From Moraxella sp. FZFQ2102 (lineage in GTDB: Bacteria; Pseudomonadota; Gammaproteobacteria; Pseudomonadales; Moraxellaceae), in contig NZ_CP099960.1 in the NCBI RefSeq assembly GCF_024137865.1, forward strand, positions 1,240,001 to 1,304,000: DNA of 64,000 nt, written 5' to 3'. How positions within the stretch are numbered: the stretch's first letter is position 1; every line of letters starts with the position of its first letter. A program made the position numbers and the translations under genes. Under the pieces are notes generated by a model that worked only from the letters and a program-made list of their open reading frames with translations, did no database searches and was not told where the DNA came from. Shown one piece after another: positions 1-36,882 of this stretch.

Positions 1-1124
1 AGCCCCAATCCACGCCCACGGGCGGACGGTCAAGTTTCTAAGCTACCTATGCGGTAGTGGAGCTCACTGTTTGAGTCCACGATTACAGCCAGTATTTCTA
101 AGCTACCTATGCGGTAGTGAAGCCACCACCAACCCCACAGGGCGAGACATTGGCTTTCTAAGCTACCTATGCGGTAGTGAAGCAGTTAATGACACCAATT
201 CCGCCCCATCGTAATTTCTAAGCTACCTATGCGGTAGTGAAGCACAACCGACCATAACGCCTGCGATACTTCGTTTTCTAAGCTACCTATGCGGTAGTGA
301 AGATGGGGTTGTAGGGGGTTTACCCCATGCCACGTTTCTAAGCTACCTATGCGGTAGTGAAGGAACTTAGGGACACTATCCAAGACATGAACAATTTCTA
401 AGCTACCTATGCGGTAGTGAAGTTCTGCTAATCTGATCCGCTCCAGCTCCAGTTTTTCTAAGCTACCTATGCGGTAGTGAAGCCGACAGCGTTTTGTCAC
501 CGAATGGGTTTTTATTTCTAAGCTACCTATGCGGTAGTGAAGCACAACCGACCATAACGCCTGCGATACTTCGTTTTCTAAGCTACCTATGCGGTAGTGA
601 AGATGGGGTTGTAGGGGGTTTACCCCATGCCACGTTTCTAAGCTACCTATGCGGTAGTGAAGTTTCTCGCTTGCCTTGATTTTCTTGGGCTGACTTTCTA
701 AGCTACCTATGCGGTAGTGAAGGATGGGGCGGACATTGTCGCAGTTGGTGGGGTATTTCTAAGCTACCTATGCGGTAGTGAAGTGTGTTATGGATAGATT
801 TACTTAACAATGATTTTTCTAAGCTACCTATGCGGTAGTGAAGGCAGTTGCCCCATCTGCTCGGGGGTGATTAAATTTCTAAGCTACCTATGCGGTAGTG
901 AAGCCCCAATCCACGCCCACGGGCGGACGGTCAAGTTTCTAAGCTACCTATGCGGTAGTGAAGTTTCGCAGGGTAGTGGCTAGGTTTTTTTGATTTTTCT
1001 AAGCTACCTATGCGGTAGTGAAGTTTAATTTACTTTCCAATTCGTGATGATACTTTTTCTAAGCTACCTATGCGGTAGTGAAGCAAGCAGCATAGGGAAT
1101 AAAAATGGAATTTGTAGTGGTCAA

Positions 1125-1775
1125 CTAATTCAACAGTCCCTGATAAGTTGATTTTGCTGGAACTGGTGCCAGACCTTGATTGTATTGATGTGGACGAATG
1201 TGATTATAATACATCACATAGTCTTTGACATCATTCATTGCACTTTCAACATCACGATAACCGCCTTTTGGCATCCACTCATGTTTAAAACTACGAAACC
1301 ATCGCTCCATTGGGGCATTATCCCAACAATTGCCTCGGCGACTCATGCTTTGGACTAGCTTGTGTCTGTTTACACAAGCTGTAAACTTGTCACTGCCATA
1401 AATACTGCCTTGATCGGAGTGAAAGATCATGTTTGGTGTGTGTTTGATGTTTAGCATGGCATGGTTTAATGCATCAATCACTAAATTTGCATCATGACGA
1501 TTACCAAGCTTCCAGCCCACTACTTGACGATTGGATAAATTAATAACCACTGCCAAATAATGCCACACGCCGTTAACCTTCAGATAGGTTGTATCACCAC
1601 AAAGCACCGTTATATGAGGCTTAGGACTAAACTGTCGCTCCAGAATATTGTCAAATATTTGGCCATTGTCTTTGTCTTGATAACGCCATTTTTGCGGTTG
1701 TTTGCTAAATAAGCCTTGCTGCTTCATAAGCTTACGCACTAAATACAAGCCAACTGTGATACCTTTTGCTTGCAA
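1125..1775 (-). CDS. IS3-family transposase OrfB, DDE catalytic domain (copy a)
   Basis: This is the retroviral-integrase-like catalytic part of the transposase. The DDE residues are recognisable: Asp in GDTTYLKV, Asp in FHSDQGS and Glu in NAPMERW. The 216-residue frame from the first ATG is only the C-terminal part. The same frame stays open upstream to about 2010 and would be reached by a -1 ribosomal frameshift from OrfA at an A-AAA-AAG heptamer (minus strand, 2012-2006). That gives the usual OrfAB fusion. It is transcribed in the same direction as the surrounding CRISPR array. Confidence 0.93.
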   Translation of the reverse strand: MQAKGITVGLYLVRKLMKQQGLFSKQPQKWRYQDKDNGQIFDNILERQFSPKPHITVLCGDTTYLKVNGVWHYLAVVINLSNRQVVGWKLGNRHDANLVIDALNHAMLNIKHTPNMIFHSDQGSIYGSDKFTACVNRHKLVQSMSRRGNCWDNAPMERWFRSFKHEWMPKGGYRDVESAMNDVKDYVMYYNHIRPHQYNQGLAPVPAKSTYQGLLN

Positions 1776-1948
1776 TCGTGCTTTGATACTGCGTTTACCT
1801 GCTGAGCCTCTGCTTTCGTCAAAAATGGCTTTTATGTGAGTGGCGATACCAACATGCTTAGCTGGTTTATTAGCCTGTCGTAACTGGGTATAGTAAGCAC
1901 TTTCACTGACGCCAAATAACTTACATAAACGCTTGATGCCGTGCGATT

Positions 1949-2272
1949 TTAATGTCTTAATTGCTTGGTATTTTTGCTCTCGAGAGATATTAAAATCGCT
2001 GTAGCCTTTTTTAGAATCAGCTTGTCCTCTTCTAGCACTCTGATTCTATCTTCTAGCTCACGAATACGTTGTTGATCAGGACTGATTGGTTTTGAGCCTG
2101 CAAGTACATAGCCTTGATGTTCTGCTTTGACTTGGCTTAACCAGCGTCTAAATGATGTTTCACCAACATCCAATTCCTGACAAGCCTGGGATATGCTGTA
2201 GCCTTTGTCTGTGACTAATTTTACTGCTTCTAATTTAAACTCTGCACTAAAGCTTCGTCTTGGTCGTCTCAT
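1949..2272 (-). CDS. IS3-family transposase OrfA, DNA-binding (copy a)
   Basis: The 107-residue protein has an N-terminal helix-turn-helix that binds the IS ends (residues about 8-50, FSAEFKLEAVKLV then SISQACQELDVGETSFRRW). A short coiled coil with leucine-zipper spacing follows (about 70-90, IRELEDRIRVLEEDKLILKKA). The A-AAA-AAG slip site lies in the Leu-Lys-Lys codons near residue 87, where ribosomes can shift -1 into OrfB. The start is an ATG about 65 bp inside the IS end. Confidence 0.92.
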   Translation of the reverse strand: MRRPRRSFSAEFKLEAVKLVTDKGYSISQACQELDVGETSFRRWLSQVKAEHQGYVLAGSKPISPDQQRIRELEDRIRVLEEDKLILKKATAILISLESKNTKQLRH

Positions 2273-4424
2273 GGTTTATCCTCATTTTTATGATATTGTA
2301 CCACTTATTGAGGACTGCGGGATTAGTGTACCACTACAATTACATTTCTAAGCTACCTATGCGGTAGTGAAGCATCCGTACCCTGTTTGCCCTTTTTACT
2401 GTTCTTTCTAAGCTACCTATGCGGTAGTGAAGGTTCGAGCAAGCATCAGTAAATACAACATCTATTTCTAAGCTACCTATGCGGTAGTGAAGTGGATTGG
2501 GCGAAGATGACTATAACATTCTTTTTTCTAAGCTACCTATGCGGTAGTGAAGGTCGTCGAGCTGGAGTTTACCGATGAAGCAAGGTTTCTAAGCTACCTA
2601 TGCGGTAGTGAAGGAAATAACTTGGCTTAACCATCAACAAAACATTTTCTAAGCTACCTATGCGGTAGTGAAGATCATCTGCTTGTAGTGATGGGTTCTA
2701 AATTGGTTTCTAAGCTACCTATGCGGTAGTGAAGAGAATATCGGATGATTTAGACTGTAATTGATATTTCTAAGCTACCTATGCGGTAGTGAAGCAAATT
2801 AACTTTACGACGGCTGATTTGTACTTTTTCTAAGCTACCTATGCGGTAGTGAAGGAATCAGGGTTCCGAGCATCCACGATTGGCATTTTCTAAGCTACCT
2901 ATGCGGTAGTGAAGGCAGTACAAGCACCCAGTATAATTTTTTCTCTTTTCTAAGCTACCTATGCGGTAGTGAAGCCCAAGACATACCCCACGGAAATCAT
3001 GTCAAGTTTCTAAGCTACCTATGCGGTAGTGAAGTTTTGGAGTGGTACATATAGCGGTGTTGGGTCTTTCTAAGCTACCTATGCGGTAGTGAAGAATCCA
3101 AATGGAACAAAAATTGGATACCATGTTTTTCTAAGCTACCTATGCGGTAGTGAAGGATTTGACATACCCCCGATAAATCATATCAAGTTTCTAAGCTACC
3201 TATGCGGTAGTGAAGGCCTTTTTCGCTCCGCCACGGCTAGGGTCTTTTTTCTAAGCTACCTATGCGGTAGTGAAGTTGCGTTTCGTGGCAACGGGCGGAC
3301 TGCTCAATTTCTAAGCTACCTATGCGGTAGTGAAGATATTTCCGCCAATCCGATTTCAACATCATCGTTTCTAAGCTACCTATGCGGTAGTGAAGTGTGT
3401 TTTTAGCTTTGTTTCGTTCTCTCACTTGTTTCTAAGCTACCTATGCGGTAGTGAAGATCATAAACCATCCCTTCGATCGGACGCTTAATTTCTAAGCTAC
3501 CTATGCGGTAGTGAAGAACTGCGTATATGATTATTAGCAAATTCTACGTTTCTAAGCTACCTATGCGGTAGTGAAGACCCAAGCCAACCGCCAACGCATT
3601 TTGTCGCTTTTCTAAGCTACCTATGCGGTAGTGAAGAAATTTTGGCGCGCGGCTGATGAACACGAAAGTTTCTAAGCTACCTATGCGGTAGTGAAGGGGG
3701 GCTTGTCCCCCTAAGCAAGCCGAAAAGATTTTCTAAGCTACCTATGCGGTAGTGAAGTCATTCTGTGCGTCCTGTGTGTCGTTTTTCTTTTTCTAAGCTA
3801 CCTATGCGGTAGTGAAGCCCTACTTGCCAATGGCGTAGGTCATTAAGATTTTCTAAGCTACCTATGCGGTAGTGAAGTTAGAATGATTGATAGGGTGGTT
3901 TGGGTATTTTTTCTAAGCTACCTATGCGGTAGTGAAGATCAAAATGGCGTGGAAATGTGGATGGGCGTGTTTCTAAGCTACCTATGCGGTAGTGAAGCGA
4001 GAAAGCACTCACGATAGCCAAAAATCGTTTTTCTAAGCTACCTATGCGGTAGTGAAGGTTTTTCAGCGTTAGGGTTAGCAGGATAAAGCTTTCTAAGCTA
4101 CCTATGCGGTAGTGAAGAGGGTACTCTTTGCGTAATTGCTCATATTTCTTTTCTAAGCTACCTATGCGGTAGTGAAGGTCTTGGTTGGTTTCATCGTCTT
4201 TTTGCCATTTTTCTAAGCTACCTATGCGGTAGTGAAGAGGTGAAAAAATAGCTGCGGTGGGAATTGGACTTTCTAAGCTACCTATGCGGTAGTGAAGAGA
4301 ATTTCCCCTTGTTGGCGGTGTTTGCGTTTTTTCTAAGCTACCTATGCGGTAGTGAAGAAAAGAGTACAAAGAGCAGTTTCAGCAATGATTTTCTAAGCTA
4401 CCTATGCGGTAGTGTAGTGGTCAA

Positions 4425-5075
4425 CTAATTCAACAGTCCCTGATAAGTTGATTTTGCTGGAACTGGTGCCAGACCTTGATTGTATTGATGTGGACGAATG
4501 TGATTATAATACATCACATAGTCTTTGACATCATTCATTGCACTTTCAACATCACGATAACCGCCTTTTGGCATCCACTCATGTTTAAAACTACGAAACC
4601 ATCGCTCCATTGGGGCATTATCCCAACAATTGCCTCGGCGACTCATGCTTTGGACTAGCTTGTGTCTGTTTACACAAGCTGTAAACTTGTCACTGCCATA
4701 AATACTGCCTTGATCGGAGTGAAAGATCATGTTTGGTGTGTGTTTGATGTTTAGCATGGCATGGTTTAATGCATCAATCACTAAATTTGCATCATGACGA
4801 TTACCAAGCTTCCAGCCCACTACTTGACGATTGGATAAATTAATAACCACTGCCAAATAATGCCACACGCCGTTAACCTTCAGATAGGTTGTATCACCAC
4901 AAAGCACCGTTATATGAGGCTTAGGACTAAACTGTCGCTCCAGAATATTGTCAAATATTTGGCCATTGTCTTTGTCTTGATAACGCCATTTTTGCGGTTG
5001 TTTGCTAAATAAGCCTTGCTGCTTCATAAGCTTACGCACTAAATACAAGCCAACTGTGATACCTTTTGCTTGCAA
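4425..5075 (-). CDS. IS3-family transposase OrfB (copy b)
   Basis: The translation is identical to OrfB of copy a, with all three DDE motifs intact. It is expressed as the C-terminal half of an OrfAB fusion after a -1 frameshift at about 5306-5312. It is oriented with array transcription. Confidence 0.93.
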   Translation of the reverse strand: MQAKGITVGLYLVRKLMKQQGLFSKQPQKWRYQDKDNGQIFDNILERQFSPKPHITVLCGDTTYLKVNGVWHYLAVVINLSNRQVVGWKLGNRHDANLVIDALNHAMLNIKHTPNMIFHSDQGSIYGSDKFTACVNRHKLVQSMSRRGNCWDNAPMERWFRSFKHEWMPKGGYRDVESAMNDVKDYVMYYNHIRPHQYNQGLAPVPAKSTYQGLLN

Positions 5076-5248
5076 TCGTGCTTTGATACTGCGTTTACCT
5101 GCTGAGCCTCTGCTTTCGTCAAAAATGGCTTTTATGTGAGTGGCGATACCAACATGCTTAGCTGGTTTATTAGCCTGTCGTAACTGGGTATAGTAAGCAC
5201 TTTCACTGACGCCAAATAACTTACATAAACGCTTGATGCCGTGCGATT

Positions 5249-5572
5249 TTAATGTCTTAATTGCTTGGTATTTTTGCTCTCGAGAGATATTAAAATCGCT
5301 GTAGCCTTTTTTAGAATCAGCTTGTCCTCTTCTAGCACTCTGATTCTATCTTCTAGCTCACGAATACGTTGTTGATCAGGACTGATTGGTTTTGAGCCTG
5401 CAAGTACATAGCCTTGATGTTCTGCTTTGACTTGGCTTAACCAGCGTCTAAATGATGTTTCACCAACATCCAATTCCTGACAAGCCTGGGATATGCTGTA
5501 GCCTTTGTCTGTGACTAATTTTACTGCTTCTAATTTAAACTCTGCACTAAAGCTTCGTCTTGGTCGTCTCAT
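5249..5572 (-). CDS. IS3-family transposase OrfA (copy b)
   Basis: The 107 residues are identical to OrfA of copy a: a helix-turn-helix followed by a leucine-zipper-like helix, ending past the A-AAA-AAG slip heptamer. No inactivating change is seen, so the copy looks transposition-competent. Confidence 0.92.
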   Translation of the reverse strand: MRRPRRSFSAEFKLEAVKLVTDKGYSISQACQELDVGETSFRRWLSQVKAEHQGYVLAGSKPISPDQQRIRELEDRIRVLEEDKLILKKATAILISLESKNTKQLRH

Positions 5573-6307
5573 GGTTTATCCTCATTTTTATGATATTGTA
5601 CCACTTATTGAGGACTGCGGGATTAGTGTACCACTACAGTAGTGAAGATGAAAAACCTGCCAAACCTTACAAATGGCTTTTTCTAAGCTACCTATGCGGT
5701 AGTGAAGGCCTATGTCCGAAAGGATATAGATAAGCTGATTTTCTAAGCTACCTATGCGGTAGTGAAGCCAATTACGCATATCGACCTTTTCAGCCGATTT
5801 TTCTAAGCTACCTATGCGGTAGTGAAGAAAGAAAGGTGCGTGAACTGCTTGGGGGAATGTTTCTAAGCTACCTATGCGGTAGTGAAGGAAAAGTCAGATG
5901 ATGAAATTCTACACGAAACTTTCTAAGCTACCTATGCGGTAGTGAAGATGTACACTAAGTTATTTAGGGAATTTGCCAATTTCTAAGCTACCTATGCGGT
6001 AGTGAAGGAGCGAAGTCAAATGGGGTCGTGTCAATGGATTTTCTAAGCTACCTATGCGGTAGTGAAGGTAGTTGATATGAAAAATAGTGAAACATTAAAT
6101 TTCTAAGCTACCTATGCGGTAGTGAAGTTAGGTTAATTTAACGCATCTTATCAGAGTGCTTTCTAAGCTACCTATGCGGTAGTGAAGATGGTCAAACATT
6201 GGTGGGGTACTCCACTGATTTTCTAAGCTACCTATGCGGTAGTGAAGTATTGGGGTCATGAGCGAGCGTGATACAAAATTTTCTAAGCTACCTATGCGGT
6301 AGTGAAG

Positions 6308-6487
6308 AGTAATTATAAACAAAAAAACTAAGAAATAACAGGGGGTTATGATGGTTTTACCCTTTTTACCCAAACAAAAATCCACCTATTATAACTGATT
6401 GATTTTATTAAGTTTTTAAATAGTTATAAAAATAAAGGGTAAAACTTTATTTGTTTGTCATCCAATGATCCAAAGTATAGCATAAAT
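6308..6487 (-). promoter_or_regulatory. CRISPR leader of array 1
   Basis: About 180 AT-rich bases lie between the last repeat and the cas1 promoter. The segment is shared, with a single difference, with the sequence next to array 2 (38756-38935). Both copies end at the same place, which defines the functional leader. On the minus strand there are two TATAAT boxes (6312-6317 and 6388-6393), neither with a good -35, so the array promoter cannot be fixed by eye. A 12-bp inverted repeat, GTTTTACCCTTT (6354-6365) and AAAGGGTAAAAC (6434-6445), brackets the middle. An IHF-type site lies at 6392. Confidence 0.9.
6392..6404 (-). promoter_or_regulatory. Predicted IHF binding site in leader 1
   Basis: On the minus strand the 13-mer AATCAATCAGTTA fits the IHF consensus WATCAANNNNTTR at every defined base. 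It lies about 85 bp from the leader-proximal repeat. IHF bending of the leader is known to guide Cas1 and Cas2-3 integration in type I-E and I-F systems. The same 13-mer is kept in the second leader. Occupancy is inference. Confidence 0.6.
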
Positions 6488-6532
6488 CAAGATAACGGCA
6501 AAAATATAAGCTTATAAAATATCAAAACCGGC

Positions 6533-6561
6533 TTGACAGGGTGTTATTTTGGTGATTAAAT
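6533..6561 (+). promoter_or_regulatory. Predicted cas1-cas2-3 promoter
   Basis: A consensus -35 TTGACA (6533-6538) is followed after 17 bp by TTAAAT (6556-6561), which is preceded by an extended -10 TGA. Transcription would start about 20 bp before the cas1 ribosome-binding site. It diverges from the array leader. Confidence 0.65.
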
Positions 6562-6588
6562 TTGATAGTGATATAAGGAAATTTGCAC

Positions 6589-7533
6589 ATGAACTCCCTC
6601 AAACCCACCGACCTAAAAGCCATTTTACATTCCAAGCGAGCCAATATTTTCTACCTAGAACATTGCCGTGTCATGCAAAAAGACGGTCGAGTGCTATACT
6701 TAACCGAAACTAAATACGAAAATCAATATTATAATATTCCCATTGCCAATACCACTTGCATTTTGCTTGGCACAGGCACTTCCATTACGCAGGCTGCCAT
6801 GCGAATGCTCGCCAGTGCAGGCGTGTTGGTCGGCTTTTGTGGGGGCGGTGCAACGCCACTTTTTTCAGGGGCGGAAATTGAATGGCTTAATCCACAAAGT
6901 GAATATCGCCCAACCGAATATGTACAAGGGTGGCTGTCTTTTTGGTTTGATGAACAAAAACGGCTGACCATCGCCAAAGAATTTCAACAAAAACGCATTG
7001 AATTTATTCAAAAAATTTGGTCAAAGGACAAGGAGTTACACGAAGCAGGATTTGCCATTGATGACCATGATGTTTTGCAAGCTTATACTAGTTTTCAACA
7101 TAAAATTTCTACGGTAAACTGTGTCAATGAGTTGCTATTGGCAGAAGCACAAATGACCAAGCAGTTATATAAATATTCTGCAAATCATTGCGGATTGTCA
7201 TTTGAACGCAATTTTGAAGCGGGAGATTTGGCGAATAATTTTCTCAATCATGGCAATTATTTGGCCTATGGGCTTGGGGCGACAACGCTGTGGGTGCTCG
7301 GCATTCCGCACGGCTTTGCGGTTATGCACGGTAAGACACGGCGTGGGGCGTTGGTGTTTGATGTGGCGGATTTAATCAAAGACGCGATTGTGCTTCCTTG
7401 GGCGTTTGTTTGTGCTAAAGATGATTTTAGTGAACAAGAATTTCGTCAAAAAATCTTGCAAAAATTCACACAACATAAAGCACTCGATTTTATGTTTGAG
7501 CAAGTGAAATCGGCTTCACAATACTTTTCATAG
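6589..7533 (+). CDS. cas1: CRISPR-associated endonuclease Cas1, type I-F
   Basis: This is the integrase subunit that, with the Cas2 part of Cas2-3, inserts new spacers at the leader end of the arrays. I chose ATG 6589 (314 aa) over an upstream TTG because AAGGAA lies 8 nt before it. The length fits Cas1f. The C-terminal block HGFAVMHGKTRRG...FDVADL carries the probable metal ligands His247 and Asp261, and Glu186 in LLLAEAQMTK is the likely third. It is the first gene after the leader, with cas2-3 following across a palindromic repeat. Confidence 0.95.
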   Translation: MNSLKPTDLKAILHSKRANIFYLEHCRVMQKDGRVLYLTETKYENQYYNIPIANTTCILLGTGTSITQAAMRMLASAGVLVGFCGGGATPLFSGAEIEWLNPQSEYRPTEYVQGWLSFWFDEQKRLTIAKEFQQKRIEFIQKIWSKDKELHEAGFAIDDHDVLQAYTSFQHKISTVNCVNELLLAEAQMTKQLYKYSANHCGLSFERNFEAGDLANNFLNHGNYLAYGLGATTLWVLGIPHGFAVMHGKTRRGALVFDVADLIKDAIVLPWAFVCAKDDFSEQEFRQKILQKFTQHKALDFMFEQVKSASQYFS

Positions 7534-7625: not shown

Positions 7626-7649
7626 AAGCCTATGACCAAGGATATAGAA

Positions 7650-10600
7650 ATGATTGTTACCTTTATTTCTCAATGTGAAAAAAAGGCACTCCCACGCACT
7701 CGGCAGGTATTGGACGCATTTGCCAATCGGATTGGCGATAATACTTGGCAGACGGTCATTACCGAAGATGGCTTGGCGATGGTCAAAAAATTACTTGCTC
7801 GCAGTGCAAGCAAAAGCACGGCGGTCAGTTGTTACCGATTTCATACTCGCAAACACAGCGAATTGGTATGGATTGTCGGCAATCGTCATAAATTTAATGA
7901 ATGGGGCTATGTGCCTGTGAATCGCACCAAACGCAATATTTTGCACAGCGAATGGCAAAATGATTGGCAATATATCAGTGCCATTCAAATTATGGCGACT
8001 TTGTCCGCTTTATTGCACGATTTGGGTAAATCTACACTTGGTTTTCAACACAAACTCACGCACGGCAGTACACAAGGCGACCCTTATCGTCATGAATGGA
8101 TTTCTTTAAAAATTTTGCTGTGGCTTTGTCAAGATTGCCAAACCGATAATGATTGGTTGCAACGCTTTGGGCAAATTGATGAATGGCTTGCCAAGCAAAA
8201 CTTATCGGCATTAAATGCCTATTTACAATCTAATCAAGACCACGCCAATTTAGCTCAATTACCCCCATTGGGACAATGGCTAGCTTGGCTTGTGGTCAGT
8301 CATCATCGCTTGCCTCCTTTGACCGATGTGTTTTTAAAAGAACAAGTTCGCACCCAATTTCAAAAAGATACCTCAATCTTATATCTTGAACGCTCGCTTG
8401 CCAAAATCTATGCAGAGTTTACCGCCAAAGATTATTGGGTCAAAAATCCCAATGTCGTCAATTCTGAAAATTTCTTTAAATTTCAACAATGTGTCATTAA
8501 TAGTAAAACTTGGCAAAACAGCCTAAAACGCTGGGCAAGAAAAACCCTGCAAGACCCTACATTGCAAGCCTTATCCGCCCAAAATCAGCCGATTGATAAC
8601 GCCATTTTGCTGTATTTATCACGGCTGTGCTTGATGGTAGGCGACCATAATTATTCATCATTAAAAGACAATGATCCTCGCCGTGTCGCCACAAAATCCA
8701 CACTTTCTTTACTTGCCAATACTGACCGCAAAACACGCACGCCCAAGCAATTTTTAGATGAACATTTGTTGGGTGTGGCATCATTTACCGCCCATTTTGC
8801 ACGGTATTTGCCAACCATCAGCGAGCAATTACCGACATTACTCAAACATCGCCCTTTGAGCAAAAACACCGAGATTGAGCGATTTTCTTGGCAAAATCAC
8901 GCCTTTAAAATCGCCAAAAGTGTGCAAGCTGACAGTGATACGCATGGCTTTTTTGGGGTGAATATGGCGTCCACAGGCTGTGGTAAAACCATCAGCAACG
9001 CTCGCATTATGTATGGATTATCGGACGAGAAAAAAGGGGCAAGATTGACCATTGCATTAGGTTTGCGAGTTTTGACTTTGCAAACAGGGTTGAGTTTACG
9101 CCAAGATTTGCAGTTAAATGACGAGCAATTAGCGATTTTGGTCGGTGGTGGCGGTGTTCGGCAATTATTTGAAATCAATGAACAAAAAAATCAGGCTGAA
9201 ACAACTTCCGCTTACGGTAGTGAATCGGCAGAGGAATTGGTGGACGGCTTTGTGGACGGTTCGCCTGATTATCATGCGTTGAATGAACTCAATATTGATA
9301 CTTTACTGGCGGATAATAAAGCAAAAGATCTGTTGTTTTCGCCTGTGGTTACTTGCACCATTGACCATCTTATGCAAGCTTGTGAATGCAAACGGGGCGG
9401 TGGTTACATTGCTCCAATGCTTCGTTTATTGAGTAGCGATTTGATTTTGGACGAACCTGATGATTTTGACCACAATGATTTGCCTGCGTTGGCACGACTT
9501 GTGCATTTGGCAGGTGTGTTTGGCTCAAAAGTGTTGTTGTCATCGGCAACGCTACCGCCTGATTTGATTGCAGGCTTATTTGAAAGCTATTTGGCAGGGC
9601 GAAAATTGTTCAATCAAAGCCAAAATAAACCCACACCGCAAGTGGTCTGTGCGTGGTTTGATGAACAAAAAAATGGCTCAACAGTCGCACCTTGTGGAGA
9701 GATGGAAAATTTCAGACAGCAACATCAAGCCTTTGTTAATAAACGCACCAAATTTTTGCACGCCCAGCCCATTCGCCGTAAAGCTGATGTGTTGCCTGTT
9801 AATATTGCCTATCATCAAGATAAACAAGCAAAATTTTATACCGAATTGGGACAAAAAATCATTGATGGAGCAAGCCAATTACATCAATCTTATCATACCG
9901 TTGATGAAAAATCAGGCAAATGCGTGAGTATTGGTTTGGTACGACTTGCCAATATCAAACAACTAACACGCCTTGCGTTTTATTTGCAAAATGCCCAACT
10001 CCCTGCCGATACGCACATTCATGTGGTGTGCTATCACGCAAGACAGCTTTTGATTTTGCGAAACCATGTGGAATATGCTTTGGACAAAATCTTAAAACGC
10101 AATGGCGATGAACAAGCGATTTTTGCTCACGATGAAATCCGTCAAGCGATGGCAAAAAGTCATGCCAAACAGCATATTTTTATGGTGCTGGCAACGCCTG
10201 TGGCGGAAGTGGGACGAGACCATGATTATGATTGGGCGATTGTTGAGCCAAGCTCTATGCGGTCAATCATTCAACTGGCTGGGCGAGTGTGGCGACACCG
10301 TCCGCAAAAGTTAGCAACTTTCCCTAATTTATTGATATGGCAGAAAAATATCCGCCATTTGCAAGGGCAAACGCCTGTTTTTACCAAGCCGGGATTTGAA
10401 GTACCTGAATTGAAATTGCCAAGTTATGAATTTAATGCTTTGATAAATCAAGAATTTTTGGATAAAGTGGATGCTTGTCCAAGAATTGACAAACCGAGTC
10501 CATTAAAGCCGACTTTGGCAGGCTTGGAACATCGTTTGATGACGCATTTATTTTCATCAAAAACAACCAATTATGTCAATGCCTATTGGCGAGACGCAGG

Positions 10601-11003
10601 CGTATCCAATCGGATACACACGCATTTACAGCAAGTTTCGCCTTTTCGCCACAGCACACAGCAAGATGAAGAATGGATACTCATTCCCAAGCAAATTCTT
10701 GATGAGAGCGAAACTGGCTTTGATGTGTATGCAAGCGAAAACATTCGTGAACATGGCTTGCATCATGCGAGTAAACACAATCACTATATTCAAATACTGA
10801 ATTTTGAGTATCAGCACCCACAAATTGATACTTGGCTAGTCGGTGATGTGTATGCGGAAATGGTGCAACTGCACACGCATTTGTCCGAGCAAAGCCTGTC
10901 GTATATTGCCATACAGTTTAGCAAAGTGCGACTGAATAGCAACAAACAACAATGGTATTTTTGCCCATTTTTGGGCGTGGTGTCGGAGCGGTTTAGCTCC
11001 TAG
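7650..11003 (+). CDS. cas3: Cas2-Cas3 fusion nuclease-helicase, type I-F
   Basis: This effector nuclease degrades DNA bound by the Csy complex, and its N-terminal Cas2 part joins Cas1 in adaptation. From ATG 7650 (1117 aa) the order is: Cas2-like domain beginning MIVTFISQC, HD nuclease (LLHDLGK, His123-Asp124), helicase Walker A (STGCGKT, Lys446), DEPDD box near 601, SSATLPP, and QLAGRVWRH near 875. The ATG at 7632 is possible, but 7650 has AAGG upstream and matches the family N-terminus. All catalytic motifs are intact. The gene ends three bases before the degenerate repeat of the mini-array. Confidence 0.96.
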   Translation: MIVTFISQCEKKALPRTRQVLDAFANRIGDNTWQTVITEDGLAMVKKLLARSASKSTAVSCYRFHTRKHSELVWIVGNRHKFNEWGYVPVNRTKRNILHSEWQNDWQYISAIQIMATLSALLHDLGKSTLGFQHKLTHGSTQGDPYRHEWISLKILLWLCQDCQTDNDWLQRFGQIDEWLAKQNLSALNAYLQSNQDHANLAQLPPLGQWLAWLVVSHHRLPPLTDVFLKEQVRTQFQKDTSILYLERSLAKIYAEFTAKDYWVKNPNVVNSENFFKFQQCVINSKTWQNSLKRWARKTLQDPTLQALSAQNQPIDNAILLYLSRLCLMVGDHNYSSLKDNDPRRVATKSTLSLLANTDRKTRTPKQFLDEHLLGVASFTAHFARYLPTISEQLPTLLKHRPLSKNTEIERFSWQNHAFKIAKSVQADSDTHGFFGVNMASTGCGKTISNARIMYGLSDEKKGARLTIALGLRVLTLQTGLSLRQDLQLNDEQLAILVGGGGVRQLFEINEQKNQAETTSAYGSESAEELVDGFVDGSPDYHALNELNIDTLLADNKAKDLLFSPVVTCTIDHLMQACECKRGGGYIAPMLRLLSSDLILDEPDDFDHNDLPALARLVHLAGVFGSKVLLSSATLPPDLIAGLFESYLAGRKLFNQSQNKPTPQVVCAWFDEQKNGSTVAPCGEMENFRQQHQAFVNKRTKFLHAQPIRRKADVLPVNIAYHQDKQAKFYTELGQKIIDGASQLHQSYHTVDEKSGKCVSIGLVRLANIKQLTRLAFYLQNAQLPADTHIHVVCYHARQLLILRNHVEYALDKILKRNGDEQAIFAHDEIRQAMAKSHAKQHIFMVLATPVAEVGRDHDYDWAIVEPSSMRSIIQLAGRVWRHRPQKLATFPNLLIWQKNIRHLQGQTPVFTKPGFEVPELKLPSYEFNALINQEFLDKVDACPRIDKPSPLKPTLAGLEHRLMTHLFSSKTTNYVNAYWRDAGVSNRIHTHLQQVSPFRHSTQQDEEWILIPKQILDESETGFDVYASENIREHGLHHASKHNHYIQILNFEYQHPQIDTWLVGDVYAEMVQLHTHLSEQSLSYIAIQFSKVRLNSNKQQWYFCPFLGVVSERFSS

Positions 11004-11005
11004 CC

Positions 11006-11069
11006 GTATTAAGCAACCTATGCGGTTGAGACATTCAAAACACTATTTTCTAAGCCATCTATGCGATGA
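11006..11069 (-). ncRNA. Predicted CreR-like autoregulatory crRNA (degenerate mini-CRISPR)
   Basis: Two degenerate repeats (11047-11074 and 11006-11033) flank a 13-nt guide (11034-11046). Read on the minus strand, the first repeat has hairpin UCAUC-GCAUA-GAUGG and the exact I-F handle CUUAGAAA. The second has CAACC-GCAUA-GGUUG. Relative to the array hairpin CUACC-GCAUA-GGUAG, three base pairs have changed on both sides and one is now U-G. The five-base loop is unchanged. Such covariation argues for kept Csy4 processing and against simple decay. The guide AUAGUGUUUUGAA pairs with a PAM-flanked site at 11100-11112. Cas-regulating RNAs (CreR) are known from other CRISPR types; assignment here is inference. 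Confidence 0.8.
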
Positions 11070-11075
11070 TTAATT

Positions 11076-11104
11076 ATTGTATCACAACTTTAAATTTTAT
11101 ACAA
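11076..11104 (-). promoter_or_regulatory. Predicted promoter of the mini-CRISPR RNA
   Basis: On the minus strand, -35 TTGTAT (11104-11099), exactly 17 bp, then -10 TACAAT (11081-11076) preceded by an extended -10 TGA. The expected start near 11069 is the first base of the first degenerate hairpin. The -35 overlaps the predicted guide target, so the RNA could also limit its own synthesis. Confidence 0.65.
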
Positions 11105-11114
11105 AATACTATGG
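11100..11114 (-). promoter_or_regulatory. Predicted Csy/mini-crRNA operator with CC PAM
   Basis: The minus strand reads CC (the I-F PAM, 11114-11113) followed by ATAGTATTTTGTA (11112-11100). Against the mini-array guide ATAGTGTTTTGAA only positions 6 and 12 differ. In type I effectors every sixth guide base is flipped out and not read, so these are the tolerated positions. The PAM abuts the csy1 -35 box. Binding would be expected to block transcription without the extended pairing needed for cleavage. Confidence 0.75.
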
Positions 11115-11143
11115 TTGATTTTTGTTTTTAAATATGGTGTAAT
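11115..11143 (+). promoter_or_regulatory. Predicted csy1-csy2-csy3-csy4 promoter
   Basis: -35 TTGATT (11115-11120), 17 bp, then -10 TGTAAT (11138-11143) preceded by an extended -10 TGG. It starts the interference operon separately from cas1-cas2-3. The -35 directly touches the PAM of the predicted operator. A ribosome-binding site AAGGAA lies about 8 nt before the csy1 ATG. Confidence 0.7.
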
Positions 11144-11176: not shown

Positions 11177-12550
11177 GTGATGATAACAAACGACCTTGCC
11201 AAAACCGCAGTCAGCCGATTTTTGCAACATCAAATTGACAGCAAGTCAGAAAAATTGCAAAAACAGCTTGCAGTAGCAACAGAAAATGGCGATAAAGCCA
11301 CGATTGCCGATTTAAACAGTCAAATTCAAGAGATTGAGCAAAAATTTGAAAAAACTGCTTGGCTTGATTTGGCGGTGCATAGCATGGCAAAACAGCTCAA
11401 ATTTGGCACACACATTTCCAAAGGCATACACCCCGATGCTAAAGGCGACAATGTCAATTTTATCGCCACCGCCCAACGCCCACACACTTTAATTGGTACG
11501 CACAGTCTTGCCAATCCTGCATTAGATGCCAATGGGAATGCGGCGGCGTTGCCATTGGCTTCATTTTTTGATTTTGATGTGGCGGACGGTGTTAAAGTGC
11601 GTGATTTGATTTTGGCGGATAATGCTGAATTTATTGCGTCTTTGTCTGATAATACAGATACCGCAAGCGAATATCACGCACATTTTAAGCAAATTTTGCA
11701 AAATAACATGGAAAATCCAACCACGCATGAACGCAATAAACAGTTGCTTTGGTATACGAGTGGCGACACGGCGGACGGCTTGGACGCACTTCAATATATG
11801 ACGATTATTCCGCTTTATCCGTCAGCATTAACTTATGAAGTTTATCTAAAAATTAATCAATTAAGATATTCTGATGACAATAAAAAGGCTTTGGAAAATC
11901 GCTTTAAACCCAACGCAGAACATACGCCTTATGTGAGTATGCCCAATTTGGCAACTGTGCAATTAGGCGGCTCAAAACCGCAAAATATCAGCCAACTGAT
12001 GAGCAGACAAGGCGGACGCAATTATTTATTGCCATCACTACCGCCCAAAATTCGCCAAAGTCGTGAATTTGCGTTATCTAAATTTAGCGAAAACTTTTTT
12101 GATAGCAAAACTTTAAAATATCATGTTCAAGATGATTTTAAGTATGTCATTGAAGTAGTTCAAGATATTAGAAATAATATTGATGTGCGAGACAAGCGCA
12201 AAGACGCGATAGACCGCATTTTGCATACTATTTTTGCCATCGCCCATGAATTGCAAGACAGACCAGCAGGTTGGTCAAAAGAATATGCTTTATCTTTACC
12301 GCAAAAATTTTGGCTTGACCCTTATCGTAGCGAACTGGACGGCGAAGAAGAATTTGCCCAAGAAAAAGCCAAAAACGAATGGCAAAAAGTGATTTTAGAT
12401 GATTTTGCGTCATGGTTTAATCATGAATTGCGTACGACTTTTAAAGAACTTAAATTTGATTTTGCCGATGCCGAGTACATTGAATGGAAACGAGAAATTG
12501 ACGATATGCAGAAATTTTATGGGCGTGCAGGCAAAGGGGTATTTTTATGA
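11177..12550 (+). CDS. csy1: Csy1 (Cas8f), large subunit of the type I-F effector
   Basis: This subunit caps the 5' handle of the crRNA and, in the family, reads the CC PAM. The 457-residue length and position (first gene of the csy1-4 operon, before a recognisable csy2) fit Cas8f. The opening (MMITNDLAKT...) begins with a charged helical region, and a VQLGGSKPQNISQL stretch lies mid-protein. The start could be 11177 or the next codon, 11180, both ATG. The gene ends with a 4-bp ATGA overlap with csy2, indicating coupled translation. It is AT-rich like the rest of the cas operon. Confidence 0.92.
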   Translation: MMITNDLAKTAVSRFLQHQIDSKSEKLQKQLAVATENGDKATIADLNSQIQEIEQKFEKTAWLDLAVHSMAKQLKFGTHISKGIHPDAKGDNVNFIATAQRPHTLIGTHSLANPALDANGNAAALPLASFFDFDVADGVKVRDLILADNAEFIASLSDNTDTASEYHAHFKQILQNNMENPTTHERNKQLLWYTSGDTADGLDALQYMTIIPLYPSALTYEVYLKINQLRYSDDNKKALENRFKPNAEHTPYVSMPNLATVQLGGSKPQNISQLMSRQGGRNYLLPSLPPKIRQSREFALSKFSENFFDSKTLKYHVQDDFKYVIEVVQDIRNNIDVRDKRKDAIDRILHTIFAIAHELQDRPAGWSKEYALSLPQKFWLDPYRSELDGEEEFAQEKAKNEWQKVILDDFASWFNHELRTTFKELKFDFADAEYIEWKREIDDMQKFYGRAGKGVFL

Positions 12551-13512
12551 GCAAGCGAGTTGTCGGTTATGCGTTATTGCACAAAGTGGTCATCAATAAT
12601 GCCAATGCTATTTCTAGCCCCATTACTTTTGGCTTTCCTGCGGGTACGGGGTTTACAGGGGCGATTCACGCTTTATCACGCACCATGATGGCAGATGAGC
12701 GATTTGCCAATTTATCTTTGGGCGGTGTGTTGCTCGCGTGTTTTGATTGCACACCCAAAATTTATCGTGAAAGCCCATATCGTGATTACACTTTTAATCA
12801 AACACGCAATCCACTCAAAAAAGATGGCAGTACCGCTTCTATTGTAGAAGAAGGTAAATGCAACTTGGTTATGAGTTTTGTCATTGAAGTGTTAGCAGAC
12901 GATTTACTTTCGCAAGAATTAAGCCAATCATTATGCCAATTTTTATCGCAAGCGATTTTCAGACAGCGTGTGGCAGGCGGAAGTGTGATGGGAATAGGCA
13001 AACGGGGCGTGCAATATATTAGCTCGGTACACAAAGATGAAATCATTGCTTTGCTCATGCCTGCGTTTGTACTCATGGACGCAAGCGATGAATTTGGTCA
13101 ATTGATTGACAACGCCAAAAGCAAAAATCCAAGCGTAACATCGCTTGATGTGTTGCTTGATGTGTGTACATTGCACCATATTCCAGAGTTGGACAAAGAT
13201 GGCAATACCAAATGGCATACCGAATCCATCAAAACAGGGCATGGTTGGCTGGTGCCTATGCCGATAGGTTATCAGGCAATTAGCGAAATTTTTCAGGCAG
13301 GCAAAATGGCAAATGTACGCAATCTGGAATATCCAAGCCAATATGTAGAAGCGATTTATGGCTTGGGCAAATGGGTCTATCCACATCATTTAAAAGACAA
13401 CATTGACACCGCTTTTTGGCGACAAGCATATGACGAAACAGGCTTGTATTTCATTACCCAAGCGAATTTAGACAAACAGCAAAACACCCTTTCTTGGCAA
13501 TTTTTAAAATAA
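12547..13512 (+). CDS. csy2: Csy2 (Cas5f), effector subunit
   Basis: Csy2 pairs with Csy1 at the 5' end of the crRNA in the Csy complex. The 321-residue protein has typical family segments near the N-terminus (FGFPAGTGFTGAIHAL) and the later GYQAISEIFQAG block. It overlaps csy1 by ATGA and is followed after 12 bp by csy3, whose ribosome-binding site CGGAG lies in that gap. No interruption or unusual residue is seen. Confidence 0.93.
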   Translation: MSKRVVGYALLHKVVINNANAISSPITFGFPAGTGFTGAIHALSRTMMADERFANLSLGGVLLACFDCTPKIYRESPYRDYTFNQTRNPLKKDGSTASIVEEGKCNLVMSFVIEVLADDLLSQELSQSLCQFLSQAIFRQRVAGGSVMGIGKRGVQYISSVHKDEIIALLMPAFVLMDASDEFGQLIDNAKSKNPSVTSLDVLLDVCTLHHIPELDKDGNTKWHTESIKTGHGWLVPMPIGYQAISEIFQAGKMANVRNLEYPSQYVEAIYGLGKWVYPHHLKDNIDTAFWRQAYDETGLYFITQANLDKQQNTLSWQFLK

Positions 13513-13524
13513 ACGGAGTATCTT

Positions 13525-14529
13525 ATGAGCAAATTAACCACCGCCAGCGTTTTGGCATTTGAACGCAATTTGGACATTTCTGATGGCTTTATGGCACAAA
13601 AAAATAGCCAAGATGATAACAGCCCAGTTGTGCCTGTGCGTATTCAAGAAAAATCCATTCGTGGCACGATTAGCAATCGTTTGAAAAATGCCATCACCAA
13701 TGACCCTGCCAAATTGGACGCTGAAATTGAAAAAGCCAATTTGCAAAAAGTGGATTCTGCGTCTTTGTTGGAAGAAAATGATACGCTCGTTGTGTCGTGG
13801 ACTTGTAAAGTATTACCCTTTGATGGCAAGCCCAATGTGTGCAATAAGCAAGATTATCAAGCCAAATTATTGGGAGTGGTGCAAGGTTATCTGCAAGAAC
13901 ATGGCGTAAAGACATTGGCACATCGCTATGCAACCAATATCGCCAATGCTCGTTGGTTGTGGCGTAACCGTGTCGGCGCAGAAAAAATCACGGTTAGCGT
14001 AACATGCAAATTAGCCGACAAAGAGCAAACTTTAACCTTTAATGCAAAGGATATTTTGGTACGCAATTTTGAAACAAATAATGATGATTTGGCGACTTTG
14101 GCAAATTGGATTGAACAAGGTCTGACCAATCAAGCCTTTATTATTTTGAATATTAAAGCAGAAGCGATTGTGGGCTTTGGTCAAGAAGTCTATCCATCAC
14201 AAGAATTGATTTTGGATACAGGCAAAACCAAAAGCAAAGAATTGTATAAAATCAATGACAAAGCAGGTATGCACTCGCAAAAAATCGGCAATGCCATTCG
14301 CACGATTGATGATTGGTATCCGAATGCTGAATTTCCGATTGCGGTTGAGCCGTATGGTGCAGTTACAACAATGGGAACAGCATTTCGCCAGCCCAAACAA
14401 AAGCAGGATTTCTACACGCTTTTTGATAATTGGGTATTAAAAGATGAAAAACCAAGCGTTGAAAATCAGCATTATGTGATGGCGGTTTTGATTCGTGGCG
14501 GTGTATTTGGAGCGAGTGGGAAGGAATAA
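13525..14529 (+). CDS. csy3: Csy3 (Cas7f), backbone subunit
   Basis: Six copies of this protein normally form the helical backbone along a 32-nt guide. The 334-residue protein begins MSKLTTASVLAFERNLDISDG and contains RGTISNRLKNA and GAVTTMGTAFRQPK, characteristic of Csy3. CGGAG is the ribosome-binding site. The stop codon overlaps the csy4 start (TAATG). A 13-nt guide, as in the mini-array, would hold only two or three copies, which is compatible with a short binding-only complex (inference). Confidence 0.95.
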   Translation: MSKLTTASVLAFERNLDISDGFMAQKNSQDDNSPVVPVRIQEKSIRGTISNRLKNAITNDPAKLDAEIEKANLQKVDSASLLEENDTLVVSWTCKVLPFDGKPNVCNKQDYQAKLLGVVQGYLQEHGVKTLAHRYATNIANARWLWRNRVGAEKITVSVTCKLADKEQTLTFNAKDILVRNFETNNDDLATLANWIEQGLTNQAFIILNIKAEAIVGFGQEVYPSQELILDTGKTKSKELYKINDKAGMHSQKIGNAIRTIDDWYPNAEFPIAVEPYGAVTTMGTAFRQPKQKQDFYTLFDNWVLKDEKPSVENQHYVMAVLIRGGVFGASGKE

Positions 14530-15128
14530 TGAAATTTTATCAAGAAATGACCTTATTGCCCGATTCGGAAATTAGTCCTTATTTTTTGTGGACAAAGGTT
14601 TATACTCAATTACATATTGCGATTGCCGATGTCAAAAATACGCATGGTGTTCATGCGATTGGCGTAAGTTTTCCCAATTATCGCTATAGCAATGATAATG
14701 GCAAAATCTCAGGCACTTTGGGGCGTAAATTGCGTGTCTTTGCCCAAAGCGAAGATGAATTGGTCAAGCTGGATTTAAGCAAACAGCTTGAACGCTTGAC
14801 AGACTATGTACACATCATCAGTATCAAACCAGTTCCTATCGACAAAATTACAGGTTATGCACAGTATTATCGCGTGATGCCGAAAATGCCACTTGAGCAG
14901 CGCATCGCGCACCAAGCCAAGCGACACGGCGTGTCATTAGAAGAAGCCACCGCGCATCTGAAAAACTACCAAACGCCGCCCACCAGTGAGCCGTTTATCC
15001 GCCTGACTAGCCACAGTACAGGGCATGAGTTTTCGCTGTATATTGGCAAGACTATCACAGATAGCACAGGCGATGGTCATTTTGGTACTTATGGGCTCAG
15101 CCGTAGCGCAGGCGTGCCTGAGTTTTGA
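14529..15128 (+). CDS. csy4: Csy4 (Cas6f), crRNA-processing endoribonuclease
   Basis: Csy4 cuts at the 3' base of each repeat hairpin and stays bound to it. In the 199-residue protein His29 sits exactly where the catalytic histidine of Pseudomonas Csy4 lies (VYTQLH), and the C-terminal TSHSTGHEFSLYI and FGTYGLS match the family. By hand count the first 60 bases have 18 G/C, while 14881-14940 have 35 G/C. The 5' half is as AT-rich as the cas operon, and the 3' half resembles the following housekeeping genes. This suggests a recombination junction within the gene. It is the last cas gene, and no clear terminator follows. Confidence 0.95.
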   Translation: MKFYQEMTLLPDSEISPYFLWTKVYTQLHIAIADVKNTHGVHAIGVSFPNYRYSNDNGKISGTLGRKLRVFAQSEDELVKLDLSKQLERLTDYVHIISIKPVPIDKITGYAQYYRVMPKMPLEQRIAHQAKRHGVSLEEATAHLKNYQTPPTSEPFIRLTSHSTGHEFSLYIGKTITDSTGDGHFGTYGLSRSAGVPEF

Positions 15129-19976: not shown

Positions 19977-20690
19977 GGGGCTGTACTAGATTAGCAATAA
20001 TGCTATACTAGTTTTATGAAGATAACCCGTTGTAAATTAAGTAAAAAAGTTCAAGTTAAACTGCTTGAATTTTTTGTGCTTGAAGTCACCGCAAGATCAG
20101 CTGCTGATTTGTTAGAGATACATCATAATTCAGCTGCTTTGTTTTATCATAAAATTCGCTTGGTGATTGAATATCGCTTAAACCTTGAAGCTTGTGAATT
20201 ATTTGACGGTGAAGTAGAATTGGATGAAAGCTATTTCGGTGGCATTCGTAAAGGCAAGCGTGGACGGGGTGCTGCTGGCAAAGTTGCCGTATTTGGTCTT
20301 TTAAAACGCAATGGTAAGGTTTATACTGCCTGTGTTAAAGATACCAAAGCTAAGACATTAATGCCTATTATTGCCAGTAAAATCAAACCTGATAGCGTGG
20401 TTTATACAGATAGCTATCGAAGTTATAATGCTTTAGATGTGAGTGATTTTAAACACTTTAGAATTAATCATTCCAAAGAATTTGCAAACAATCATAATCA
20501 CATTAACGGCATTGAAAACTTTTGGTCGCAATCCAAACGCATTCTAAGAAAATATAACGGTATTGACAAAAAGCATTTTCATTTATTTATCAAAGAATGC
20601 GAGTTTAGATTTAACTATGGCACACCATCCAATCAATTAAGATTGTTAAGAAAATGGTGTGGGGTTTAGGGGTTTATCTAGTACAGCCCC
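19977..20690 (+). mobile_element. IS1595-family (IS1016-like) insertion sequence
   Basis: A 714-bp element with perfect 15-bp inverted ends, GGGGCTGTACTAGAT (19977-19991) and its complement (20676-20690). An 8-bp target duplication TTGTTTTT lies on both sides (19969-19976 and 20691-20698), the length expected for this family. It holds one transposase gene. The insertion separates panB from panC. Confidence 0.93.
20016..20669 (+). CDS. IS1016-like (IS1595-family) transposase
   Basis: The 217-residue transposase carries the family core: Asp in VELDESYFGG, Asp in VYTDSYRSY, then NHINGIENFWSQSKR with the Glu that replaces or follows the third ligand. A short N-terminal helix-turn-helix (TARSAADLLEIHHNSA) is present. 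Length is normal for the IS1016 group and no disruption is seen, so it may be active. Confidence 0.92.
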   Translation: MKITRCKLSKKVQVKLLEFFVLEVTARSAADLLEIHHNSAALFYHKIRLVIEYRLNLEACELFDGEVELDESYFGGIRKGKRGRGAAGKVAVFGLLKRNGKVYTACVKDTKAKTLMPIIASKIKPDSVVYTDSYRSYNALDVSDFKHFRINHSKEFANNHNHINGIENFWSQSKRILRKYNGIDKKHFHLFIKECEFRFNYGTPSNQLRLLRKWCGV

Positions 20691-23178: not shown

Positions 23179-23456
23179 TGGGTATATAAATCAAGGATAA
23201 AGCCACAGCCAGCAGCACACAACACAAATCACCCAAAAGGATGTTATAAAATATTACTAAATAATTATAATAAAAAATTATTAGTATAATCGACAGTTAC
23301 ATTGGTGAAAAAATGACTGTAGAGTATTCTTTTTTATTGGATTTTTTAGAAAAAAGTGCTAAGATGACGATATAAGCATTTATTAGTTTATTAAGAAAAT
23401 GTAATTTCATAACAGGCTAAGCCATTTGGCTTAAGCCGATCCGTGTGGGGTGTTCT
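23179..23456 (+). promoter_or_regulatory. Upstream region and candidate promoter of the autotransporter
   Basis: This AT-rich gene-free stretch contains a hairpin-forming AATAATT...AATTATT near 23260-23283. A promoter-like pair follows: TTGGAT (23337-23342), 17 bp, TAAGAT (23360-23365). The -10 is weak, so the call is tentative. Confidence 0.4.
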
Positions 23457-26400
23457 ATGTCCACCAATACTTTTCGATTATCCATTCTGTCTGCTGCCAT
23501 CTGTACGGTCTTTGCGCATACCGCGTACGCATCCATCGTCCCAAACGATATCCCTTACCAAGACTTCCGCGACTTTGCCGAAAATAAGGGCAGATTCACC
23601 GTCGGGGCGACGAACATCCCGATTTATAATACCAACAATGTCTATCTTGGCACAGCGATCAAGAATGCGCCGATGCCTGATTTTAGTGCGATGGCGACCG
23701 ATGGGCGGGCGACACTGGTCAGTGCACAATATGTCGCAGGCGTGGCGCACAACACGCATACCAGTATGAGCTTTGGGCATCATGGGGCAGTGCCGAATTT
23801 CAGCTATAAGATCGTCGCGCGCAATAATCTGGCTGAGCCAATGACCAACACCACTGACTATCACGCACCACGACTGCATAAGCTTGTGACAGAAGTTGCG
23901 CCGATACCGATCCATTATGCAGGCGAGCAGCAGACGGCTTATGAAGATGCCAATCGCTTCAGTGCCTATGCGCGCGCAGGCTCAGGGCGGCAGTACATCG
24001 GTACAGGGGCAGAAGATGACCAAAAGACTGCTATGGCGTGGGCGTACAAATACTTAACAGGTGGCGGCGTGCCGAATTTTAGCCGTAATAAAGGCAATGG
24101 CACGATCGTCTTTGAGCGAAATATAAGCACCGATAATGGTGTCTTGCCGACCATCATCGAACCAGGTGACAGTGGCTCACCACTGTTGGCTTACGATCGT
24201 AACACAGGGCGGTGGGGCATTATTGGCGTGACGCGTGCTTATTCGAGCAATGAGTTTTGGTATGTGACGATGAAGCCTGAGTTCCACACCCAAAAGCTCA
24301 ACAAGTCGCACACAGGTACATTGACCAACAACCAAGCAGGCAGCCAATTGCGATGGACGAAGCAAGGCGATACGAGCAGCCTTGTTGGTAATGGTAAATC
24401 GATCAGTGTACCGCTTAAAGCCAATACTGGCAATGAAATCAATGACTTAGATCACGGCAAATCGGTGCGTATCGACGGGCAAGACAGCACAGTGACGCTT
24501 GGCGAATCACTCGATCAAGGGGCGGGGGCGCTTGAGATCGGGGCGAATGTTACCCTGAAAGGCAGTAATCCAAATACCACTTGGACAGGGGCAGGCGTGG
24601 TGGTCGATGCGGGTAAAGTCGCCACTTGGCAGCTGAAAAATCCTGACAATGATCGCCTATCAAAACTCGGTCAAGGCACGCTATTTGTCAATGGCATTGG
24701 TGTCAATCAAGGCGACATCAGCGTCGGCGATGGGCGTGTGGTGCTAGCGATGCAGCCTGATGCTACGGGCAACAAGCAAGCCTTTGAAAACCTTGAAATT
24801 GTCAGCGGTCGCGGCACGGTGGTACTGAATGATAATGGGCAAATCAAGCCTGAAAATATCCGCTTTGGCTATCGTGGCGGTCGCTTGGATTTGAACGGCA
24901 CGCAGCTTGATACACAGCATTTGTTTGCATTAGACGATGGGGCGAAAATCGTCAATCACGACAGCGGCCGCATCGCCGACATCACTTGGCGTGGACAGGG
25001 CAAGGTCGATCATCGTATCTTTGCCACAGGCACACGCCAAACCCAAGCCGACAAGCTTGGCAGTACGCTGACTTGGGGCAGATGGGGTACGGCAGGGGCG
25101 GACATTTATGAGTATGTGAATCCTTATGCGAATAATCGCAAAGATTATTTTATGCTCAATGATGGCGGCAATGCAGGCAGCTATTTCCCGACCAGCCAAA
25201 GCAGTAACAGCAGTTGGACATTCATCGGCACGGACAAGACCGCCGCCATCGAAACGGCATTTACCCAAAAACAAGCCGACCGCTTGGTGTGGGGCAAGTG
25301 GGGCGTGGCAGGTGCGGATATTTATGAATACATTAACACGCACGCAGGTAACCGCAAGGATTACTTTATCCTAAAAGACGGCGGTAACGCACGCCGCTAT
25401 TTCCCAACGCAGCAGACGGATAATGACAGCTGGATTTATCTTGGCAGTGATAAATTTACCGCCATCAAAAACGCCTTACGCTATTATGATGCCAAGAATT
25501 TAACTTGGGGTGACTGGGGCAAAGCGGGCGCGGATATTTATGAATACATTAACACGCACGCAGGTAACCGCAAAGATTATTTTGTGCTAAAAGACGGCGG
25601 TAATGCCGGTAAATATTTCCCAACCAATCAAACAAGCAATGCCGACTGGGAATATCTGGGTTCGGATAAGAGCCAAGCAGAAAATACCGTACTGGCACGC
25701 TTACAAGCGGTCGGATTGACGACACTTTTTGCAGGGCATTTGGGTGAAGATAATGGCGTCAATGGTGCGATGAATTTTACCTTTAAGCCGACCAATGCTC
25801 AAGATCACTTGGCGCTGACTGGTGGAATGAAATTGGTAGGTGAGTTCAAGGTCAATGATGGCACGGTGCTTTTGACTGGCAAACCTGTGCCTTATGCCTA
25901 CGACCATCTGGGCAAACAAGAAGTCATCAAGGATAACGAATGGATTAACCGCGATTATCGTGCCAATGTTTTTTCGGTCAATCATGATGGCAAGCTGATT
26001 TTTGGGCGAAATGTGGCATTGGCAACGGGCAGTTTTAACGCCGCTCAGCAAGGCTTGCTACAATTTGGCTTTGTGCAAGGTATGACACCAAGCTGCATTC
26101 AGTCGGAGCATACGGGCAAAGTCGGCTGTAGCACACCGACACTGTCGCAAGTGGTCTACGGCAGTATGCCAACCCTGCAAGCCCAAGGCAATATCCGCGC
26201 GCAGCACAATGCCAAGATCCATATCGGTAAAGCGACGCTGACAGGTGCGATCACCGCGGATAACGGCACGCACACCACCATCGAGCAAGACGGCAAATGG
26301 CTGATGACGGGCAATAGCAGCATCGGCTCATTGCAGATGAATGGTGGTGAAGTGGATCTTAATGCCGCGAACAACCACGGTCGTTATCAAAGCCTAACTA

Positions 26401-36709: not shown

Positions 36710-36882
36710 AATCGCACGGCATCAAGCGTTTATGTAAGTTATTTGGCGTCAGTGAAAGTGCTTACTATACCCAGTTACGACAGGCTAATAAACCAGCTAA
36801 GCATGTTGGTATCGCCACTCACATAAAAGCCATTTTTGACGAAAGCAGAGGCTCAGCAGGTAAACGCAGTATCAAAGCACGA

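Follow-up and report, generated by a model that had tools for sequence, protein, structure and literature searches.

The stretch of DNA analysed here, 64,000 nucleotides (nt) of Moraxella sp. FZFQ2102 (NCBI RefSeq assembly GCF_024137865.1, contig NZ_CP099960.1, positions 1,240,001 to 1,304,000 of the forward strand; hereafter the window), carries a type I-F locus of clustered regularly interspaced short palindromic repeats (CRISPR), in which a degenerate mini-array of two repeats sits between cas2-3 and csy1. Type I-F is among the well-studied CRISPR subtypes, and many anti-CRISPRs act against it. The plus strand encodes cas1f (6583..7533), cas2-3 (cas3f; 7632..11003), csy1 (cas8f; 11177..12550, with the ATG at 11180 as the likelier start), csy2 (cas5f; 12547..13512), csy3 (cas7f; 13525..14529) and csy4 (cas6f; 14529..15128), and the gap from cas2-3 to csy1 measures 173 bp. 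Canonical I-F arrays occupy 35..6307 on the minus strand, with a second stretch at 35936-38755; the ordinary spacers of the window number 86, all of 32-33 nt, and the 84 distinct ones among them supplied the control spacers used below.

The mini-array reads on the minus strand. Its first degenerate repeat, psi-R1 (11047..11074), assigned from the repeat family and the unit detector, ends in the 8-nt CRISPR RNA (crRNA) 5' handle CTTAGAAA (11054-11047), which is unaltered relative to the canonical repeat. Directly 3' of the handle lies the 13-nt guide ATAGTGTTTTGAA (11034..11046), followed by the second degenerate repeat, psi-R2 (11006..11033), which probably forms the Csy4 hairpin that closes the RNA on its 3' side. 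If the mapped I-F CreA RNA (PMC10097628) is taken as the model, a mature mini-crRNA of 8 + 13 + 20 nt (11014..11054, minus strand) is predicted. The canonical stem CTACC/GGTAG has become TCATC/GATGG in psi-R1 and CAACC/GGTTG in psi-R2, and both still pair, with hairpin energies of -4.0 and -5.6 kcal/mol (canonical repeat, -6.6) and z-scores of -1.37 and -1.83 (canonical, -2.35); the fold of the whole mini-crRNA keeps the hairpin, at a whole-RNA z of just -0.50. Because the stem changes are paired, the hairpins appear to be retained, which suggests that they serve Csy4 processing of the mini-array transcript. With its 13-nt guide and degenerate repeats, the element lacks the 32-33-nt spacers and near-identical repeats of an ordinary immunity array.

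The guide matches a site within the same gap, ATAGTATTTTGTA (11100..11112, minus strand), flanked by a CC protospacer-adjacent motif (PAM; 11113..11114, minus strand) that reads GG on the csy1 strand. Eleven of the 13 bases are identical, including 11/11 non-flipped positions, and the sole differences are bases 6 and 12 (11107 and 11101), which belong to the every-sixth positions that type I effectors flip out of the heteroduplex; position 14, beyond the guide, also pairs with the site. A preliminary description of this sequence had given the coordinates, the 11/13 match, the two mismatches, the pairing at position 14 and the CC PAM correctly, while its guide-to-site distance of about 40 bp has to be changed to a gap of 53 bp.

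The PAM-site pattern CCATAGTNTTTTGNA occurs a single time on both strands of the 2.34-Mb genome (reversed-pattern control, 0), and no second site for the guide was found there. The 280-bp region was shuffled 3000 times with its dinucleotides preserved: the full 11/11 at non-flipped positions never arose, and a score of 10 arose in 9 shuffles; when the 84 distinct ordinary spacers were set against the same region, one scored 9, two scored 8 and 81 scored at most 7. The 3-mismatch form of the pattern is found in the window at near chance frequency (33 against 26.1 expected), and therefore only the full pattern is informative. The guide scored at best 6/11 in the region upstream of cas1 (6301-6600), and handle plus guide gave 0 matches in the viral contigs searched. 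That the match is unlikely to have arisen by chance, as had been argued beforehand, is backed by its uniqueness, the shuffles, the ordinary spacers and its recurrence in other genomes; genome-wide uniqueness, shuffles, ordinary spacers used as guides and the swaps among species described below together rule out a chance match.

The likely csy1 promoter, assigned by comparative alignment, spans 11115..11143 on the plus strand, with TTGATT (11115-11120) and TGTAAT (11138-11143) separated by 17 nt. The GG of the PAM adjoins TTGATT, which puts the site immediately before the likely -35 box of csy1. A possible mini-array promoter, read by eye, lies on the minus strand at 11076..11104 (TTGTAT at 11104-11099, 17 nt, TACAAT at 11081-11076), and its -35 overlaps the target site. 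A strict consensus promoter scan of the region returned no promoter on either strand. The promoter alignment of relatives used a hand-made list of 23 loci: in 10/23, TTGA comes directly after the GG and the best -10 hexamer follows at a spacing of 17 nt, and in a few (L155, L027, L073) no promoter was recognisable. The 67 nt from the PAM to the csy1 ATG in the window hold the promoter and ribosome site and no mini-open reading frame (mini-ORF).

The same arrangement recurs in other genomes. Upstream stretches of csy1 were collected from 76/348 genomes of the family with a match (63 above the cut-off), from 34/369 genomes of the class, and from further groups with csy1 matches in 1/1, 26/196, 2/19, 11/32, 5/11 and 6/38 genomes; seven weak family places (G054 twice, G105, G186, G097, G101, G050) and five class matches without a locus were left unscanned. 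Scanning of 147 such stretches by a fixed unit rule (handle with at most one mismatch), which replaced an initial hand selection of 29 of the 47 loci flagged by a loose detector among 73, gave 49 units, spread over 46 loci. For 46 of the units, in 45/46 loci, the own locus contains a CC-PAM site that matches 8/10 seed positions or more, and the 3/49 that fail are ordinary 32-nt spacers beside the regulatory unit (L022, L026) and a spurious-looking unit on the opposite strand (L115). In genus Moraxella, csy1 is present in 9/22 genomes, 7/9 of which have a mini-array and site before it: the guide ATTATGTATGTTAAATACAC is common to three genomes (G002, G005, G018), TATTTATAGTTAAGTT occurs in G017, ATTATTTTATTTTTATACAA in G009 and a 12-nt guide in G020, each matching its own site. 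The guide is 20 nt long in 21/45 loci, and its length is a value of the series L = 6N - 4, which relates spacer length to Cas7f number in type I-F1 (Tuminauskaite et al. 2020; PMC7296934), in 25/45. In L022 (G239) and L026 (G337) the 20-nt regulatory guide adjoins ordinary 32-nt spacers in a longer array, with the guide of L022 lying 827 nt from its own csy1 site; arrays such as these may still gain spacers.

Guides and sites were then exchanged among loci by taking, for each guide, the best CC-PAM site in the whole region of the 102 stretches collected by then. At 9/10 seed matches or better, a site was present in the own locus for 34/38 guides and in other loci for 45/3838 combinations; at 8/10 or better, the figures were 36/38 and 424/3838. 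Different guides share a mean seed identity of 3.4/10, against 9.7/10 for a guide and its own site once pairs below 8 had been dropped. For the 31 non-redundant pairs, which are not phylogenetically independent, the own-locus figure of 31/31 at 8 or more is true by construction, since the three failing units were dropped first, and the other-locus figure of 3/930 compares single sites; the symmetrical swap test is the fair test. Choosing sites by total identity, flipped bases included, gave the same site in 30/31 pairs. Judged by these sequences, guide and site evolve together across genera, and independent variation of guide and promoter site, which the preliminary description had named as a refutation of its reading, was not seen across species in the swap test.

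Matches in the 31 pairs follow the period of six. They amount to 31/31 at each of positions 1-5, 8/31 at position 6, 28-30/31 at positions 7-11, 9/31 at position 12 and 8/26 at position 18. Pooled positions 6, 12 and 18 match in 25/88 cases, close to the 27.6 that independence of guide and site at these positions would give, and the G009 pair differs within positions 1-18 at these three and nowhere else. The earlier remark that the mismatches fall on the flipped every-sixth bases thus describes a general property of the 31 pairs, because mismatches concentrate at 6, 12 and 18 across them. Non-flipped positions in 1-17 match in 417/450 cases (versus flipped, p = 4e-37), and the site base at flipped positions is skewed towards A (A:T 58:18 versus 169:230 at other positions, p = 4e-8), both p-values being too optimistic because the loci are related. 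The skew is in the site and not in the guide, the site of the window has A at position 6 (base 11107), and bases 25-34 of the site strand showed no A/T skew (116:114). A guide of an I-F3 CRISPR-associated transposon likewise carries a mismatch at flipped position 12, where its authors considered Cascade binding unaffected; that guide serves transposon homing, whereas the one described here would serve cas gene regulation (PMC12774636).

What follows the site differs among loci. In 23/45 loci, the window among them at 67 nt, the PAM precedes the script-chosen csy1 start by 14-88 nt; by eye, more loci have the PAM close to csy1, for example L011 and L018, in which (at least) the script-chosen start is wrong. 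Between site and csy1, 10/45 loci have a 33-nt mini-ORF of the kind published for I-F creT, as found with a regular expression that also flagged L015 and L108, whose sequences are unlike creT, and may have missed a variant in L082. A DUF2188 gene occupies this place in L012 and L016, and in L097, L108 and L125 it is taken by genes for 58-74-aa proteins that begin alike (M-x-K-[RK]-Y-V) and fall in no Pfam family; these small genes may be further cargo of the arrays. Arrays of one type are thus apparently connected to several kinds of output, csy1 being the one in this genome.

An RNA regulating cas genes, CreR, was reportedly described by Liu et al. 2023 in Cell Host Microbe. As in CreR, a mini-CRISPR lies beside the cas genes, its guide is a partial match to a PAM-flanked site of a putative cas promoter, and no toxin gene is coupled to it; its RNA, for which the sequence shows the hairpins and the handle, would be processed by the system's Cas6. 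CreR autorepression of cas has been reported for types I-B, I-E and V-A (PMC13131331), is attributed to type I and V-A in general (PMC12737573), and is also described in a further review (PMC12948488). In these reviews the effector is directed to repress the cas promoter, which is predicted here; the present case differs in its type, I-F, in its truncated guide, which has 13 nt where 20 nt are common among relatives, and in its every-sixth-base mismatches. No type I-F CreR was found in the literature searched, and the supplement of the primary CreR paper may list I-F cases.

The closest published I-F element is the RNA toxin-antitoxin module CreTA of Acinetobacter (Wang et al. 2023; PMC10097628), whose CreA RNA of 8 + 20 + 20 nt brings Csy to a site with a CC PAM, reducing creT-promoter transcripts about 7-fold; Csy is required for this antitoxin action, and Cas1 and Cas3 are dispensable. 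Both elements have two degenerate repeats, a short guide and a CC PAM in the cas3-csy1 gap, and Csy-dependent transcriptional repression, reported for Acinetobacter, is predicted here. The Acinetobacter element represses the gene of the toxin RNA creT, which contains a mini-ORF of 33 bp, and its gap measures about 400 bp, whereas the gap of the window has 173 bp, lacks the creT mini-ORF and has csy1 directly after the promoter.

Taken together, the mini-array is very probably a type I-F CreR-like autorepressor, whose 13-nt guide is predicted to load onto Csy and repress csy1-4 without Cas2-3 cleavage; the interpretation given in the preliminary description is thereby supported as the best available reading. 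Csy4 would process the mini-array transcript, and the truncated Csy complex would bind the site, with Csy1 on the PAM beside or on the -35 box, blocking RNA polymerase, while the R-loop would not be long enough for Cas2-3 recruitment. Because the site overlaps the possible mini-array -35, bound Csy would probably restrict its own guide RNA as well. Occupation of Csy by ordinary crRNAs or by an anti-CRISPR should relieve the repression and raise csy1-4. That a short match could allow binding without Cas2-3 cleavage, as proposed earlier, agrees with biochemical work on type I-F1, where complexes with shortened spacers still form R-loops and loss of as little as 6 nt of spacer abolishes Cas2/3 degradation (PMC7296934). 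A guide of 13 nt is short for Csy binding and lies outside the L = 6N - 4 series. In the type I-F1 work, restraint of a phage in vivo is lost when the spacer is shortened by at least 18 nt (14 nt or less left), so that it is uncertain how strongly a 13-nt guide would repress (PMC7296934).

Other readings of the element account for parts of the evidence. It might be the CreA half of a CreTA pair, with the guide repressing a toxic small RNA from the same promoter and csy1 merely downstream, in keeping with the array type and the cas3-csy1 gap shared with the published Acinetobacter system (PMC10097628) and with the creT-type mini-ORFs of the ten comparison loci; yet the 67 nt from PAM to ATG hold promoter and ribosome site and no mini-ORF, the genome offers the guide no further site, and we consider this improbable. 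For this genome the CreTA reading was rejected, there being no room for a toxin gene, and it is kept for those ten loci. It is similarly improbable, if anything slightly more so, that the complex mainly limits the divergent mini-array promoter, whose possible -35 the site overlaps, or activates csy1 instead of repressing it, since the PAM of relatives borders the csy1 -35 with greater regularity (10/23 of the hand-listed loci) and the related I-F CreA represses (PMC10097628). Degenerate repeats, a 13-nt guide and an AT-rich region would also be expected of a decayed array remnant with a fortuitous match, a reading that uniqueness, shuffles, ordinary-spacer controls and co-variation across loci oppose and the swap test contradicts, which makes it extremely unlikely.

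If autorepression of csy1-4 is correct, type I-F would have a built-in thermostat in many bacteria, with csy1-4 rising with crRNA load or when Csy is disabled by an anti-CRISPR. The 31 natural pairs would then amount to an evolutionary mutagenesis experiment on the positions used in stable, non-cleaving Csy binding, could be useful for I-F gene silencing tools, and would show similar arrays serving self-control in some lineages and a toxin in others. A wider proposal, tentative and on balance doubtful as a whole, is that the gap before csy1 in type I-F loci is a swappable RNA-guided control port, in which a truncated-guide array co-evolving with the adjacent promoter may drive autorepression, an RNA toxin or other small cargo, and that a flipped-base rule applies, by which pairing is dispensable at positions 6, 12 and 18, where selection might favour A in the target (T on the bound strand), easing flipping.

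Elsewhere in the window, identical insertion sequence (IS) copies at 1125-2272 and 4425-5572, encoding integrase-core and HTH_Tnp_1 proteins, split the CRISPR array, and a third copy, judged by a shared motif, is probably located at 36325-37586, the gap in the second array. The window also contains an IS1595-type transposase gene at 20016-20669 and an IgA1-protease-like autotransporter gene (Peptidase_S6, Pertactin) at 23445-28082.
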